This document shows, in pieces, positions 1,835 through 8,533 of a stretch of DNA of 64,000 nt. A program made the position numbers and the translations under genes. This DNA is from Gammaproteobacteria bacterium. Lineage in GTDB: Bacteria; Pseudomonadota; Gammaproteobacteria; Steroidobacterales; Steroidobacteraceae. The notes below the pieces were generated by a model. That model was not told the origin of the DNA and searched no databases. It saw only the letters and a program-made list of their open reading frames with translations. Where the stretch lies: assembly GCA_025357915.1 (NCBI GenBank), contig JANYLH010000027.1, positions 62,001 through 126,000 on the forward strand, read 5' to 3'. Position 1 is the first letter of the stretch. Each line of letters begins with the position of its first letter.

Positions 1835-1888
1835 ATGCACAGGCCTGCCCAGTCCGCCTCGATCTGCTGGTGGTGGCCCTGCTCCTAG
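1835..1888 (+). CDS. trpL: trp operon leader peptide, MHRPAQSASICWWWPCS, three consecutive Trp codons
   Basis: ATG CAC AGG CCT GCC CAG TCC GCC TCG ATC TGC TGG TGG TGG CCC TGC TCC TAG directly upstream of attenuator and trpE. Confidence 0.85.
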   Translation: MHRPAQSASICWWWPCS

Positions 1889-1890
1889 AA

Positions 1891-1984
1891 CGGAGTGGGC
1901 CCTGGGCTGTTTTCGACCAAAACCCGATTTTCTCACCGAGCACCAGACCCATCTCCGGAATCAAGCCGGGATGGGTCTTTTTTT
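1891..1984 (+). promoter_or_regulatory. trp attenuator: antiterminator CGGAGTGGG (1891-1899) versus terminator hairpin (1945-1978) plus T7
   Basis: AGACCCATC/GATGGGTCT 9-bp stem, extra CCGG/CCGG, then TTTTTTT; CGGAGTGGG can pair with CCCA(T)CTCCG at 1948-1957. Confidence 0.85.
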
Positions 1985-2000
1985 GGACGTAACTTATTGA

Positions 2001-3392
2001 ATGAAAGCGCCTTTTGACATCGCAGGGGATCTCGATACGCCGGTCTCGGCGTACGCAAAGCTGGCGGCTTTCCGCCCGCGTTTCCTGCTCGAGAGCGTCG
2101 AGGGCGGCGAGCGGCTGGGGCGTTACTCTTTCATTGGTTTTGGCGACGCGCTCGAGGTGCGGCTCGACGAGGGCAGTTTCACCATCGGCAGCGAAAAGCT
2201 GCCCGTGCCGCGCACTGCGCCCGAACTGCTGGCGGGGCTGCGTCGTGCGCTGGCGGCCGCGCCGCGCCCGCTCCCCGAGCTCGGCACCGTGCCGCTGGCC
2301 GGCGGGCTGGTCGGCTATACCTCGTACGATGTCGTGCGCTATTTCGAGCGGCTCCCGGACCGTGCGGCACGGCTCCCCAATGCGCCGCCGCTCCTGCACT
2401 ACGTCGCGCCCTGCTCGCTGCTGGTGTTCGATCACCTGACGCGCGCGATCGCGCTGCTCCATGCCGGTAGCGAAACCGAGCGCGCCGCGCTGCGCCGCGA
2501 AGTGATCCAGGCGCTGCGCGGGCCCATGCCCCGGGGCCGGAAGCAGGGTGCAGGATGCGAGCTTCCCGTAGCTGCGCTGAGCCGCGACGCCTACCTTGCC
2601 GGCGTCCGGCGCGCGCAGGAATACATCGCCGCGGGCGATGTCTATCAGCTGGTGCTGTCCTCGCGCTTTTCGGGCCGGCACGACCTCGAGCCCTTCCAGG
2701 CCTATCGCGCCCTGCGGCTCGTGAACCCTTCGCCGTACATGTTCTACTGCGAACTCGGCGAACTGACGGTGGTCGGCTCGTCGCCCGAGGCGCTGGTCAA
2801 GCTCAGCGGGGAACGGGCCGAACTGCGGCCGATCGCCGGCACCCGGCCGCGCTCCGGCGATTCCGAGCTCGACGCCGCGCGTGCGGTGGAACTGCTCGCC
2901 GATCCGAAGGAGAACGCCGAGCACGTGATGCTGGTGGACCTGGCGCGCAACGATCTCGGGCGGGTCGCGAAAGCAGGCAGCGTGTACGTCGAGCCGTTTC
3001 GCGCGATCGAACGCTACAGCCACGTAATGCACATCGTCAGTGGCGTGCACGGCCAGCTGGCCCCCGGGTGCGATGCCTTCGACCTGTTCGCCGCGGCCTT
3101 TCCGGCCGGCACGCTGGTTGGCGCGCCCAAGGTGCGCGCCATGGAGATCATCGAGGAACTCGAGCCCGTGCGTCGCGGCCTGTACGGCGGTACCGTGGGC
3201 TACTTCGGCGCCCGCGGCGACATGGACCAGGCGATCACCATCCGCACGCTGGTGTTCCACGGCGACGAATACAGCTACCAGGCGGGCGCCGGCATCGTTG
3301 CCGACAGCCGGCCCGAAGCCGAGCATGGAGAAATCCTGGACAAGAGCGCGGCGGCCGTGCAGGCGCTGCGGCTCGCGGAGGAAGGGCTGTGA
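2001..3392 (+). CDS. trpE: anthranilate synthase component I
   Basis: 463 aa; chorismate-binding motifs [43 protein letters not shown]. Confidence 0.96.
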
Positions 3393-3994
3393 GTACGCGC
3401 CTGCTGCTGATCGACAACTACGATTCCTTTACCTACAACCTGGTGCAGGCCTTCATGGTGCTGGGCGCGGAAGTGATCGTGCATCGCAACGACGCGCTGA
3501 CGGTGGAGGCGGCGGCGGCACTCGCGCCGACGCACCTGTGCATCTCGCCGGGCCCGGGCACGCCGCAGCAGGCGGGCGTGTCGGTCGCGATGATTCGCGC
3601 CTTTGCCGGGCGCATCCCCGTCTTCGGCGTGTGCCTCGGGCACCAGTCGATCGCCGCCGCCATCGGCGGCTGCGTGGTGCGCGCACCGCGCCTGATGCAC
3701 GGCAAGACCTCGCCCATCGAACACGACGGGCGCGGCGTATTCGCCGGCATTCCCAGCCCCTGCGAAGTCGGCCGCTACCACTCGCTGATCGCCGAGCGCG
3801 ATTCGCTCCCGGCCGAACTCGCGGTCACGGCGCGCACCGCGGAAGGGGAAATCATGGGCCTGCGGCACACCCGGTTGAACATCGAAGGGGTGCAATTCCA
3901 TCCGGAGAGCGTGCTGACGCCGCAGGGACCGGCGATGATGAAGAACTTCCTCGCAGCCAGCGGCGGCCGCGCGGCCGCGGCGCACGGGAGCTAG
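3389..3994 (+). CDS. trpG: anthranilate synthase component II (glutamine amidotransferase)
   Basis: GTG start overlapping trpE stop; [33 protein letters not shown]. Confidence 0.95.
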
Positions 3995-3999
3995 TGGCG

Positions 4000-5058
4000 A
4001 TGCCGGTAGTCAACGCCCTGAACGAAACGCTCGACCGCCTGCTCGACGGCCAGAATCTGGCCGAACGCGAGGCCGGAACCCTGCTGGTCGCGCTCACCGC
4101 GCCCGAACTGGCGCCCGCACTGGCCGGCGCGTTGCTGGCCGCGCTCCGGGCCAAGGGCGTGACGGCCGCAGAGCTGCGCGGATTCGCCGTGGCGATGCGC
4201 GCGCTGGCGCGCAAGCCGCAGCTGCCGGCCGCACTACGCGCCGTCGACATCGTGGGGACCGGCGGAGATAAATCGGGCAGCCTGAACCTGTCCACCGGCG
4301 CAGCGCTGCTCGCGGCGGCCTGCGGCGTCCCGGTCGTCAAGCACGGCAACCGTTCCATCTCCAGCCGTGCCGGGAGTGCGGATGTGCTGGCGGCGCTGGG
4401 GATGGCCATGCCGCTGGACGAACGGCGCGCCGGCGAATGCTTTGCTGCCACCGGGTTCACTTTCCTGTTTGCGCCGCATTACCACCCGGCGATGAAGGCG
4501 CTCGCGCCGGTACGCGCGGCGCTCGGCGTGCGCACCGTGTTCAATATCCTGGGGCCGCTCACCAACCCGGCCGAGCCGCCGTTCCACGTGATCGGCGCCT
4601 ACGACCTGCCGACCGCCGAGCTGATGGCGCAGGCGCTGTCGGGCATGAGTATCGAGCGCGCGCTGGTCGTGCACGGCGCCGGTGGCTGGGACGAGCCCAC
4701 GCCGATCGGCCCGTTCGAGCTGTTCGACGTGCGCGCGGGCGACGTGCGACGCGAGCAGCGCGACCCAGCCGACTACGGGCTGGCGCCGTGCGTGGCCGAC
4801 GATCTTGCCGGGGGCGATGCGGCGGACAATGCGCGCGCGCTGCAGCGGATCCTCTCGGGCGAACAGCAGGGCCCGCAGCGCGACGCACTGCTGCTCGGCG
4901 CGGCGCTCGCGCTCGAAGTCACCGGCCTGGAGGCGGCGCCGCGCCTGGGCGTGGCGCGCGCCGCGCAGGCGATCGATTCCGGTGCGGCCAGGGCGCTGCT
5001 CGCGCAGCTGGTGCGCGTGGCGGCGGGCACGGATCCTCTGGAGGCGCCGCATGTCTGA
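4000..5058 (+). CDS. trpD: anthranilate phosphoribosyltransferase
   Basis: VDIVGTGGDKSGSLNLSTGAALLAAACGVPVVKHGNRSISSRAGSADVL. Confidence 0.96.
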   Translation: MPVVNALNETLDRLLDGQNLAEREAGTLLVALTAPELAPALAGALLAALRAKGVTAAELRGFAVAMRALARKPQLPAALRAVDIVGTGGDKSGSLNLSTGAALLAAACGVPVVKHGNRSISSRAGSADVLAALGMAMPLDERRAGECFAATGFTFLFAPHYHPAMKALAPVRAALGVRTVFNILGPLTNPAEPPFHVIGAYDLPTAELMAQALSGMSIERALVVHGAGGWDEPTPIGPFELFDVRAGDVRREQRDPADYGLAPCVADDLAGGDAADNARALQRILSGEQQGPQRDALLLGAALALEVTGLEAAPRLGVARAAQAIDSGAARALLAQLVRVAAGTDPLEAPHV

Positions 5059-5902
5059 GGCGGGCAGGGCGGGTGATTTCCTGGCCGGCATGGCCGCGAG
5101 CAGCCGCAAGCGCGTGAGCGCGGCGCGTGCGCAACTGGCCGACGGGGAACTGGCGGCACGCGCGCTCGACTCACCGCTGCCGCCGCGGCTGCAGCTGTCG
5201 TCGCGGCGCTTCGACCTGATCGCCGAGGTGAAATTCCGCTCGCCCGCGGGCGGGAAGCTGCGCGAAGGGAGCGACGAGAGCGTCATGGCGCGCGTGGCCG
5301 GCTACGCAGAGGCGGGTGCCGCGGCGGTATCGGTGCTGACCGAGCCCAGCCGTTTCGACGGTTCGATGGCGCACCTCGAGACCGCCGTGCGCGCGCTCGG
5401 CGGGCGGATTCCCGCCATGCGCAAGGATTTTCTGGTCGACCCCTACCAGGTCTGCGAGGCGCGGCTGGCTGGTGCCGGCGGCGTGCTGGTGATCCTGCGC
5501 ATGCTCGATGAGGAGGCGATCCGGGCCCTGCTCGAGTGTGCCGTGCGCCTGAAGCTGTTCGTGCTGCTCGAGGCCTTCGACGAGGCCGACATCGCCCGTG
5601 CCGCGGAACTGGTCAGGCAGTACACCTCGGGCACCGAGTTGCTGGTCGGGCTCAACTGCCGCGACCTGGTGACGCTCGAAGTCGTGCCCGGCCGGCTCGA
5701 AGCGCTGGCGCGTACGCTCCCCGACAGCGTGCCACGCGTCGCCGAGAGCGGCGTGACCACGGCCGCCGACGCCGCACGCGTCGCCATCGCCGGCTACGAT
5801 GTCGCGCTGGTGGGCAGTGCCTTGATGGCGGCGCTCGAACCGCTCCAGCTGGTGCGCACCATGCTCTCGGCCGGGCGTACTGAGCGCGCGCGCCGTTCAT
5901 GA
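5051..5902 (+). CDS. trpC: indole-3-glycerol phosphate synthase
   Basis: LIAEVKFRSPAGGKLRE, KDFLVDPYQV, VGLNCRDLVTLEV; 8-nt overlap with trpD. Confidence 0.95.
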   Translation: MSEAGRAGDFLAGMAASSRKRVSAARAQLADGELAARALDSPLPPRLQLSSRRFDLIAEVKFRSPAGGKLREGSDESVMARVAGYAEAGAAAVSVLTEPSRFDGSMAHLETAVRALGGRIPAMRKDFLVDPYQVCEARLAGAGGVLVILRMLDEEAIRALLECAVRLKLFVLLEAFDEADIARAAELVRQYTSGTELLVGLNCRDLVTLEVVPGRLEALARTLPDSVPRVAESGVTTAADAARVAIAGYDVALVGSALMAALEPLQLVRTMLSAGRTERARRS

Positions 5903-6501
5903 GCGGCTGGGTCAAGATCTGCGGCCTGACGACCGCGGAGGGCGTGAGCGCCGCGATGGACGCGGGCGTGGACGCCATCGGCTTCGTATTCGCGCACTCC
6001 GTGCGGCGCGTGACGGCCGAGCGCGCCGGCGAGCTGGCGCGCCCGGCGCGGCAGCGGCTGACCTGCATCGCGGTCACACAGCATCCCGGACAGTCCGAGG
6101 TCGATGAGATCGTGCGCGGTTTCCACCCGGACCTGCTGCAGACCGACCTGGAGGACTTTGCGCATCTCCATCTGCCGCAGCGCCTGGCGCGGCTGCCGGT
6201 GGTGCGGGCCACGGACGCGCCGCTCGCGGAGTATCCGCCGCGGTTGCTGTTCGAAGGAGAGCGCAGCGGCAGCGGCGAGGTTGGCAACTGGGAACAGGCG
6301 GCGGCGCTGGCGAAGCGCACGCGGCTGATACTGGCCGGCGGCCTGCACGCGGGCAACGTGGCCGCGGCCATCCGCGCGGTGCGCCCCTTCGGCGTCGACG
6401 CCTCGAGCGGCGTCGAGGCGCGGGCGGGCGTCAAGAGCACGACCAAGATCATGGAATTTGTCCAGGCCGCGCGCGCGGCATTCAGCGAGATCGAAACATG
6501 A
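5899..6501 (+). CDS. trpF: phosphoribosylanthranilate isomerase
   Basis: VKICGLTTAEG, FGVDASSGVEARAGVKS; ATGA overlap with trpC. Confidence 0.95.
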   Translation: MSGWVKICGLTTAEGVSAAMDAGVDAIGFVFAHSVRRVTAERAGELARPARQRLTCIAVTQHPGQSEVDEIVRGFHPDLLQTDLEDFAHLHLPQRLARLPVVRATDAPLAEYPPRLLFEGERSGSGEVGNWEQAAALAKRTRLILAGGLHAGNVAAAIRAVRPFGVDASSGVEARAGVKSTTKIMEFVQAARAAFSEIET

Positions 6502-7757
6502 ACGACAACACGATCGACACCAAAGGGCGCGAGCGGCTGCTGGCGCGACTCCTGGCCGGGGAATTCCCCGACCAGCAGGGGCGCTACGGCCCATTCGGCG
6601 GGCGTTACGTGCCCGAGACGCTGGTGAGTGCGCACGAGCGGCTCGAGGCGGGCGTCGCGCGCTGGCTCGCGGACGCGGATTTCCAGCGCGAACTGCAACA
6701 GGAGCTGTCGACGTGGGTGGGGCGACCGACGGCGCTCAGCCACGCGCCGCGGCTCTCGCAGCGCTGGGGCGCGGACGTCTGGCTCAAGCGCGAGGACCTG
6801 GCGCACACCGGCGCGCACAAGATCAACAACGCGCTCGGCCAGGCGTTGCTGGCGCGGCGCCTCGGCGCCAGGCGCATCGTCGCCGAGACCGGCGCCGGGC
6901 AGCACGGTGTGGCCAGCGCCGCGGCCTGTGCGCGACTGGGGTTGCCGTGCACGGTGTACATGGGTGCGGTGGACATGGAGCGGCAGGCGCCCAACGTCGG
7001 GCGCATGCGCCTGCTCGGTGCCACCGTGGTGAGCGTCACCGGCGGCGATCAGACACTGCGCGCCGCGATCGACGAGGCCATGCGCGATTGGGTCGCGGAC
7101 CCGGAGGGCACCTATTACCTGCTGGGCTCGGCGGTCGGCGCGCATCCCTATCCTTACCTGGTGCGTGAACTGCAGAGCGTCATCGGCCGCGAGGCGCGCA
7201 CGCAGATCCGGGCGCAGTCCGGCGCTCTCCCCGACCTGGTCATCGCCTGCGTCGGCGGCGGTTCGAACGCGATCGGCCTGTTCCATCCCTTCGTGAACGA
7301 TCAGTCGGTCGCCATCCTCGGCATCGAGGCGGGCGGACGCGGCGCGGGCCTCGGCGACAATGCGGCGCCGCTGAGCTTTGGCCGGCCGGGCGTGCTGCAC
7401 GGCAGTTATTCCATGCTGCTGCAGGATGGCGACGGACAGATCCAGGAAACCCACTCGGTCTCCGCAGGGCTTGATTATCCGGGCGTGGGGCCGGAACACG
7501 CCCTGCTGCAAGCTTGCGGGCGCGTCAGCTACGAAGCGGCCAGCGATGCCGATGCGCTCGCCGCGGTGCGCGAATGCTGCGAGTGCGAGGGCATCCTGCC
7601 GGCGATCGAGAGCGCGCACGCGCTCGCCGGCGCGCGCCGCTGGGCGCGCTCGCATCCGGGCAAGCGCATCCTGATCGGGCTCTCCGGGCGCGGCGACAAG
7701 GACATGCTGACGCTCACGCAGATGCTGCTGGCGAAGGCGCCCACGGGAGCGGCGTGA
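6498..7757 (+). CDS. trpB: tryptophan synthase beta chain
   Basis: GPFGGRYVPETL, REDLAHTGAHKINNALGQ, CVGGGSNAIG. Confidence 0.97.
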   Translation: MNDNTIDTKGRERLLARLLAGEFPDQQGRYGPFGGRYVPETLVSAHERLEAGVARWLADADFQRELQQELSTWVGRPTALSHAPRLSQRWGADVWLKREDLAHTGAHKINNALGQALLARRLGARRIVAETGAGQHGVASAAACARLGLPCTVYMGAVDMERQAPNVGRMRLLGATVVSVTGGDQTLRAAIDEAMRDWVADPEGTYYLLGSAVGAHPYPYLVRELQSVIGREARTQIRAQSGALPDLVIACVGGGSNAIGLFHPFVNDQSVAILGIEAGGRGAGLGDNAAPLSFGRPGVLHGSYSMLLQDGDGQIQETHSVSAGLDYPGVGPEHALLQACGRVSYEAASDADALAAVRECCECEGILPAIESAHALAGARRWARSHPGKRILIGLSGRGDKDMLTLTQMLLAKAPTGAA

Positions 7758-8533
7758 TGCTGCCGCGCGAGCGTATCGTCGCGGCCATCCGTGCTGGCGC
7801 GCGCGGCGGCGAGCCGGCGCTGGTGGCGTTCCTCACAGCCGGATACCCGCAGCGCGCACAGTTTCGCGAGCATCTGGCCGCGGTCGCGGCCGGGGCCGAC
7901 GTGGTCGAAATTGGCGTGCCCTTCACCGATCCGATGGCCGACGGCATGACCATCCAGCGCTCCAGCCAGGAGGCGCTGCGCCAGGGCGTAACGCTGCAGT
8001 GGATACTCGATGAACTCACGGCGATGCCGCGCTTGCGCGCGCCACTGCTGCTGATGAGCTATCTCAATCCGCTGCTCAGCTATGGCTATGAACGGCTCGC
8101 GGCGGCCAGCATCGCCGCCGGCGTGTGCGGTTTCATCATTCCGGATCTGCCGCTCGATGAGAGCGTGGCGCTGGGCGCGGCGCTCGACCCGCACGGTCTG
8201 GCGCTGGTGCAGATGGTCACGCCGGTGACGCCCGCGGCCCGGCTCGCGCGGCTGTGCGAGGCGAGCCAGGGGTTTGTGTACGCCGTGACCATGACCGGCA
8301 CCACCGGGCACAACGTCGCCACGCCGGCGGGCATGCTCGAGTACCTGGCACGCGTGCGCGCGGTCGCCAAAGTACCGGTGTGCGCCGGGTTCGGCATCAG
8401 GTCGCGGGAACAGGTCGAACGCCTGCGCGGCGCCGTCGACGGCTGTGTCGTGGGCTCGGCGCTGGTCGAGGTGCTCGAGCGGGGCGAGTCACCGCAGGCC
8501 TGGCTGGCGGCGCTGCGCTCATCCGCGGTGTGA
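7757..8533 (+). CDS. trpA: tryptophan synthase alpha chain
   Basis: PALVAFLTAGYP, EIGVPFTDPMADG, GFGIRSREQV. Confidence 0.96.
   Translation: MLPRERIVAAIRAGARGGEPALVAFLTAGYPQRAQFREHLAAVAAGADVVEIGVPFTDPMADGMTIQRSSQEALRQGVTLQWILDELTAMPRLRAPLLLMSYLNPLLSYGYERLAAASIAAGVCGFIIPDLPLDESVALGAALDPHGLALVQMVTPVTPAARLARLCEASQGFVYAVTMTGTTGHNVATPAGMLEYLARVRAVAKVPVCAGFGIRSREQVERLRGAVDGCVVGSALVEVLERGESPQAWLAALRSSAV

Follow-up and report, generated by a model that had tools for sequence, protein, structure and literature searches.

A candidate transcription attenuator with a probably leaderless leader peptide upstream of the trp operon of a Steroidobacteraceae bacterium

The DNA 5' of an intact trpEGDCFBA operon, whose genes are contiguous or overlapping, raises the question of whether these genes are controlled by ribosome-mediated attenuation and, if so, how translation of the leader begins and which RNA segments pair. 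The window is the whole 64,000-nucleotide stretch of contig JANYLH010000027.1 that was analysed, and all positions refer to it. A preliminary description, made from the sequence alone, read this region as a classical trp attenuator, with a leader peptide, mutually exclusive pairings and a terminator just before trpE. The genes of the operon are as follows.

2001-3392, + strand: trpE, which opens the operon (TIGR00564 trpE_most as best NCBIfam match, at E = 1.4e-141 and 472.7 bits, short of the 517.7 cut-off)
3389-3994, + strand: trpG (NCBIfam family over curated cut-off)
4000-5058, + strand: trpD (NCBIfam family over curated cut-off)
5051-5902, + strand: trpC (family by best match only)
5899-6501, + strand: trpF (family by best match only)
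6498-7757, + strand: trpB (NCBIfam family over curated cut-off)
7757-8533, + strand: trpA (NCBIfam family over curated cut-off)

The overlap or near-abutment at E/G, D/C, C/F, F/B and B/A (3389-8533) suggests translational coupling of the trp genes. Upstream of the leader, a gene that weakly matches HerA/DUF87 starts at 1776 on the minus strand and runs divergently. The elements of the leader RNA are listed below, each with the evidence on which it rests.

1835-1888, + strand: trpL, 17-aa leader peptide MHRPAQSASICWWWPCS, predicted to be leaderless, with no Shine-Dalgarno sequence (sequence, relatives, SD scan)
1868-1876, + strand: regulatory Trp codons TGG TGG TGG (sequence; WW or WWW in relatives)
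1875-1885, + strand: strand 1 (revised) GGCCCTGCTCC, pairing with 1892-1901 in the candidate protector hairpin (minimum-energy fold; relatives)
1891-1901, + strand: strand 2 CGGAGTGGGCC, 3' arm of the protector and 5' arm of the antiterminator (spacing in relatives; alignment)
1902-1946, + strand: outer extension of the antiterminator, 1902-1908 with 1939-1941 and 1943-1946 (fold of 1889-1962)
1948-1957, + strand: strand 3 CCCATCTCCG, 3' arm of the antiterminator and part of the terminator 5' arm (duplex test, alignment, folds)
1945-1984, + strand: intrinsic terminator hairpin 3:4 (1945-1958 with 1966-1978) plus T7 (covariation)

Read directly from the sequence, trpL runs from an ATG at 1835-1837 to a TAG at 1886-1888, and its codons 12-14 are the three consecutive TGG codons that the preliminary description had seen in its 17-aa leader. 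Strands 2 and 3 (CGGAGTGGG at 1891-1899 and CCCATCTCCG), the terminator arms AGACCCATC/GATGGGTCT (1945-1953/1970-1978) and the T7 run (1978-1984), 16 nt before the trpE ATG at 2001, also lie where that description put them. The ORF at 1704-2000 that it called spurious is present in the ORF list, and overlaps the promoter, leader and terminator in another frame.

Conservation of the leader and the question of TrpR

TrpE relatives were drawn from named contigs and from whole genomes belonging to the genus, the family and the order of this bacterium, among them a Woeseia MAG (L013) with 63% TrpE identity. Forty-six loci were examined, of which two were duplicates, leaving 44 distinct loci. Of the 44, 41 carry an ORF of 15-29 codons that begins with ATG, 129-223 nt upstream of the trpE start, and contains WW or WWW. 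Reading by eye added a 42nd locus (L106), which has a GTG-started W-R-W version and a CCCATCCCCG/CGGGGGTGGG terminator; it revealed no clear leader in L014, which does have a terminator, and neither leader nor terminator in L015. In one relative of the same genus (L086:1379-1500) the WWW, strand 2 and the CCGG hairpin are kept, with degradation of both the terminator stem and the T run (CCCCCGCTCCGG...CCGGATCGGATGCATTTGCC), and attenuation may have been lost or altered there.

In every one of the 41 loci the last Trp codon is followed by strand 2 at a distance of 8-14 nt (median 12), a spacing that on geometry alone is what a ribosome stalled at that codon would leave free. Strand 2 starts at the stop codon in 21 loci and inside the leader ORF in 20, where it encodes, for example, P-E-W-A or G-V-G-A; in both arrangements a non-stalled ribosome would run onto strand 2 and mask it. 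Across the order the Trp codons persist, as does the distance from them to strand 2, while the rest of the leader peptide drifts.

A covariance model built from 37 of the relative loci matches 167 of the 196 genomes of the order, and 129 of 146 among the more complete ones; the 167 are model matches, and their coordinates abut trpE matches in those genomes that were also in the TrpE search. Conservation across relatives, which the preliminary description had proposed as a check, is thus borne out by the leaders, by these model matches and by a terminator that covaries (see below). The model finds one true copy in the bacterium's own genome; a second match there (L124) was rejected as the end of a glycine-rich RNA-binding protein gene with its terminator. 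Elsewhere in the class the model is weak or absent, with a class-wide search giving strong matches only in the own genome and one of the same family, and eleven others at E values of 1e-4 to 1e-2. A gapped DNA pattern run over the class matched seven genomes; the own genome, G056 and G038, all of the same order, have trpE leaders at the match, and the other four look like chance, judging from the matched letters. One class genome outside the order (L128:1501-1647) has ACCCATCTC/GGGGTGGGT with a T run after a GGTGGCGG stretch, at 31 bits, which could reflect remote kinship with the attenuator or chance.

A different reading of the locus is that the hairpin terminates constitutively, that the WWW ORF is a by-product, and that trp is regulated otherwise, for example by a TrpR-like repressor. 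The genome does contain a TrpR-family gene (L111:1453-1770, contig C16), although its product, the sole member of the family found there, is YerC/YecD-like: it scores 67.6 bits and passes the cut-off for YerC/YecD, but reaches only 26.5 against 67.25 for TrpR. The gene sits directly 5' of a hisG-like gene, and the protein may regulate the his genes rather than trp. No TrpR equivalog over the NCBIfam cut-off was found in 30 genomes of the family, with a positive E. coli control; since the own genome is 93% complete, absence from it alone is weak and the family result is the stronger. The Trp codons and strand 2 spacing, kept across the order despite drift in the peptide, also speak against a by-product, and we regard this reading as extremely unlikely.

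Alternative RNA pairings

The terminator covaries, and the antiterminator is conserved mostly by invariance. In the terminator (3:4), 89.8% of alignment cells are paired and 6 of 13 pairs carry two-sided changes; none of 500 shuffles was as high on either cells paired or covariation score. In the antiterminator (2:3), 89.2% of cells are paired, as against 38-57% when the strands are slid, but two-sided changes occur at one pair only and 75 of 500 shuffles reach the pairing. This weak covariation, and the failure to exceed the shuffle control, reflect the fact that both strands are nearly invariant and are shared with 1:2 and 3:4. Changes from G-C to A-U on both sides are seen in two sequences (L103 and L107), in 21 of 41 loci the best 2:3 duplex outdoes spacer shuffles (p≤0.01), and CTGGGC and CACCAG of the outer extension are present in the alignment consensus.

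Folded on its own, the leader gives z = -2.1. With ribosome-covered bases removed in silico, the RNA preceding strand 4 forms a 2:3 hairpin of 6 bp or more in 40 of 41 loci, and the RNA 3' of strand 2 folds the terminator in 41 of 41. Strand 3 is common to both hairpins, and 2:3 would exclude 3:4. Conservation and geometry strongly support strands 2, 3 and 4 as originally described. Once strand 4 is present the terminator is the minimum-energy fold even with strand 2 free; with everything transcribed the terminator is favoured, and antitermination must therefore be kinetic, so that timing matters.

Strand 1 had been placed in the preliminary description 5' of the Trp codons, as CCCAGTCCG at 1848-1856, pairing with strand 2. 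Eight of nine pairs are possible in the window, and two relatives (L082 and L083) likewise reach 8 of 9 at the same place, but 26% of shuffled leader ORFs do so too, which makes the match no better than chance (p = 0.26). Many relatives drop to 5-7 of 9 with no fixed position and do not keep the pairing, and the minimum-energy fold of the window pairs 1847-1852 with 1902-1907, leaving strand 2 to 1875-1885. This assignment was rejected, and that it is nevertheless correct seems to us very unlikely.

The better-supported strand 1 is 1875-1885, directly 3' of the Trp codons, whose hairpin with 1892-1901 is part of the minimum-energy fold of the window. For 32 of the 41 relatives the local 1:2 hairpin is better than shuffles (p≤0.05), and it has four pairs with two-sided changes, a number matched by 17 of 500 shuffles. 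In folds made before strand 4 is transcribed it is the minimum-energy choice for strand 2 in 19 of the 41 and not in the remaining 22. The RNA folding proposed at the outset yields the 2:3 hairpin while strand 4 is absent and the terminator once strand 2 is masked, and would put strand 1 on the other side of the Trp codons.

Predicted promoter and start of the leader

The sole promoter-like site in 1600-2100 is TTGACG-N18-CATACT at 1797-1826.

1797-1802, + strand: -35 box TTGACG of the trp promoter (predicted; promoter scan, relatives)
1821-1826, + strand: -10 box CATACT, 18-nt spacer (predicted; promoter scan, relatives)

The -10 box ends 8 nt before the leader ATG, and +1 is predicted at about 1833-1835. 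A -35 box of the form TTGAC[GC] is present in 37 of the 41 relatives and the full pattern TTGAC[GC]-N17/18-NATACT in 34, where the -10 box ends 6-11 nt short of the leader ATG (6-9 nt in 32 of these loci). No comparable match to the pattern was found in L003, L005, L006 and L007 among the 41, and L104, L108 and L110 have other -10 choices. A scan for SD-like 4-mers (AGGA, GGAG or GAGG) 4-17 nt before the leader ATG found none in 40 of the 41 relatives and one in the remaining relative. The same scan at trpE found an SD-like 4-mer in 15 of 41; the missing SD at trpL is suggestive, but SD sequences are not universal in this group anyway.

Given a promoter that puts +1 no more than about 3 nt from the A of the leader ATG, and given the absence of an SD, trpL is predicted to be leaderless, in this genome and across the order. 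From promoter position and SD absence we infer both the transcription start and leaderless translation: the leader peptide's start codon is probably the very 5' end of the RNA, with no ribosome-binding site before it. This feature is an addition of the present analysis and went unremarked in the preliminary description. Translation of trpL from an ordinary 5' UTR, with transcription starting further upstream or an in-frame GTG or TTG as the real start, would find some encouragement in an in-frame GTG 66 nt upstream of the leader ATG and in a -10 box that fits the consensus at only 4 of 6 positions. The start codons further upstream, however, fall within the predicted promoter or 5' of it and are not conserved in relatives, whereas the boxes, the spacer and the distance to the ATG are kept in 34 of 41 and the SD-like 4-mers are confined to a single relative. 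We consider an ordinary 5' UTR unlikely.

Proposed mechanism and comparison with known systems

The elements of the leader, their conservation and spacing, the covariation of the terminator and the predicted folds are direct observations on these sequences. From them we infer ribosome stalling and a response to Trp, and put the probability at about 0.94 that trp transcription is attenuated here by a ribosome-mediated mechanism, in which trpL would be leaderless and strand 1 would take its revised position. Attenuation at the Trp codons, as originally proposed, is strongly supported by conservation and geometry, strands 2, 3 and 4 included, and departs from the original in the position of strand 1.

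Under this model RNA synthesis would begin at the leader AUG or no more than about 3 nt from it, and a ribosome would load on the leaderless message. Under a shortage of charged tRNA-Trp, this ribosome would stall at Trp codons 12-14 and cover strand 1 (1875-1885); strand 2 (1891-1899), just past its leading edge, could then pair with strand 3 (1948-1957) as it emerges, no terminator would form, and trpEGDCFBA would be transcribed. When Trp is plentiful, the ribosome would reach the stop codon at 1886-1888 and cover strand 2, strand 3 would pair with strand 4, and RNA polymerase would terminate at T7 to give a product of about 150 nt.

For a lineage that has been little studied, these results point to a well-understood form of control over the trp operon, with the strand 1 assignment corrected. 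It is probably an ordinary, well-conserved attenuator of a known kind, new here in this lineage, and the less ordinary part is the probable leaderless leader.

The Escherichia coli trp attenuator combines a short leader peptide, in which Trp codons stand side by side, with alternative 1:2, 2:3 and 3:4 pairing and an intrinsic terminator 5' of trpE. E. coli trpL (Rfam RF00513, Trp_leader) and the leader described here are alike in leader peptide, alternative pairings (here predicted) and position of the terminator. They differ in the number of Trp codons (three here, two in E. coli) and in the sequences of the strands, and here the promoter abuts the leader AUG, with no SD and no TrpR equivalog found. 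RF00513 gave no match in 1500-2300 and none over its gathering threshold (41 bits) in 21 genomes, and the Rfam model misses the whole group. One sub-threshold match, in G006, was set aside, as it lies on contig C3 and away from the G006 trpE (contig C9); a match to Rfam SdsR over 1910-1984, at 17.5 bits (E 2.7; gathering threshold 38), is the terminator hairpin, hit by chance.

A literature search found a precedent in Sinorhizobium and no paper on the trp leader of this group. In Sinorhizobium meliloti the 5' end of the trpLE(G) attenuator RNA (rnTrpL/peTrpL) is the trpL ATG, the mRNA is leaderless, and there is no transcription repression (PMC7298713). The likeness is one of arrangement, a leader RNA beginning at the AUG, with the 5' end here predicted; trpE(G) there is one of three trp operons, whereas here, in another lineage, there is a single trpEGDCFBA operon. 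The rhizobial analogy could be carried further, to order-wide leaderless attenuation without TrpR in which the terminated RNA of about 150 nt (or the peptide) also acts in trans on other genes, but we view this as a long shot. More modestly, the abutment of promoter and leader AUG suggests that an arrangement known from rhizobial trpL is the rule in another large group, and opens leaderless initiation within attenuation to comparative study.
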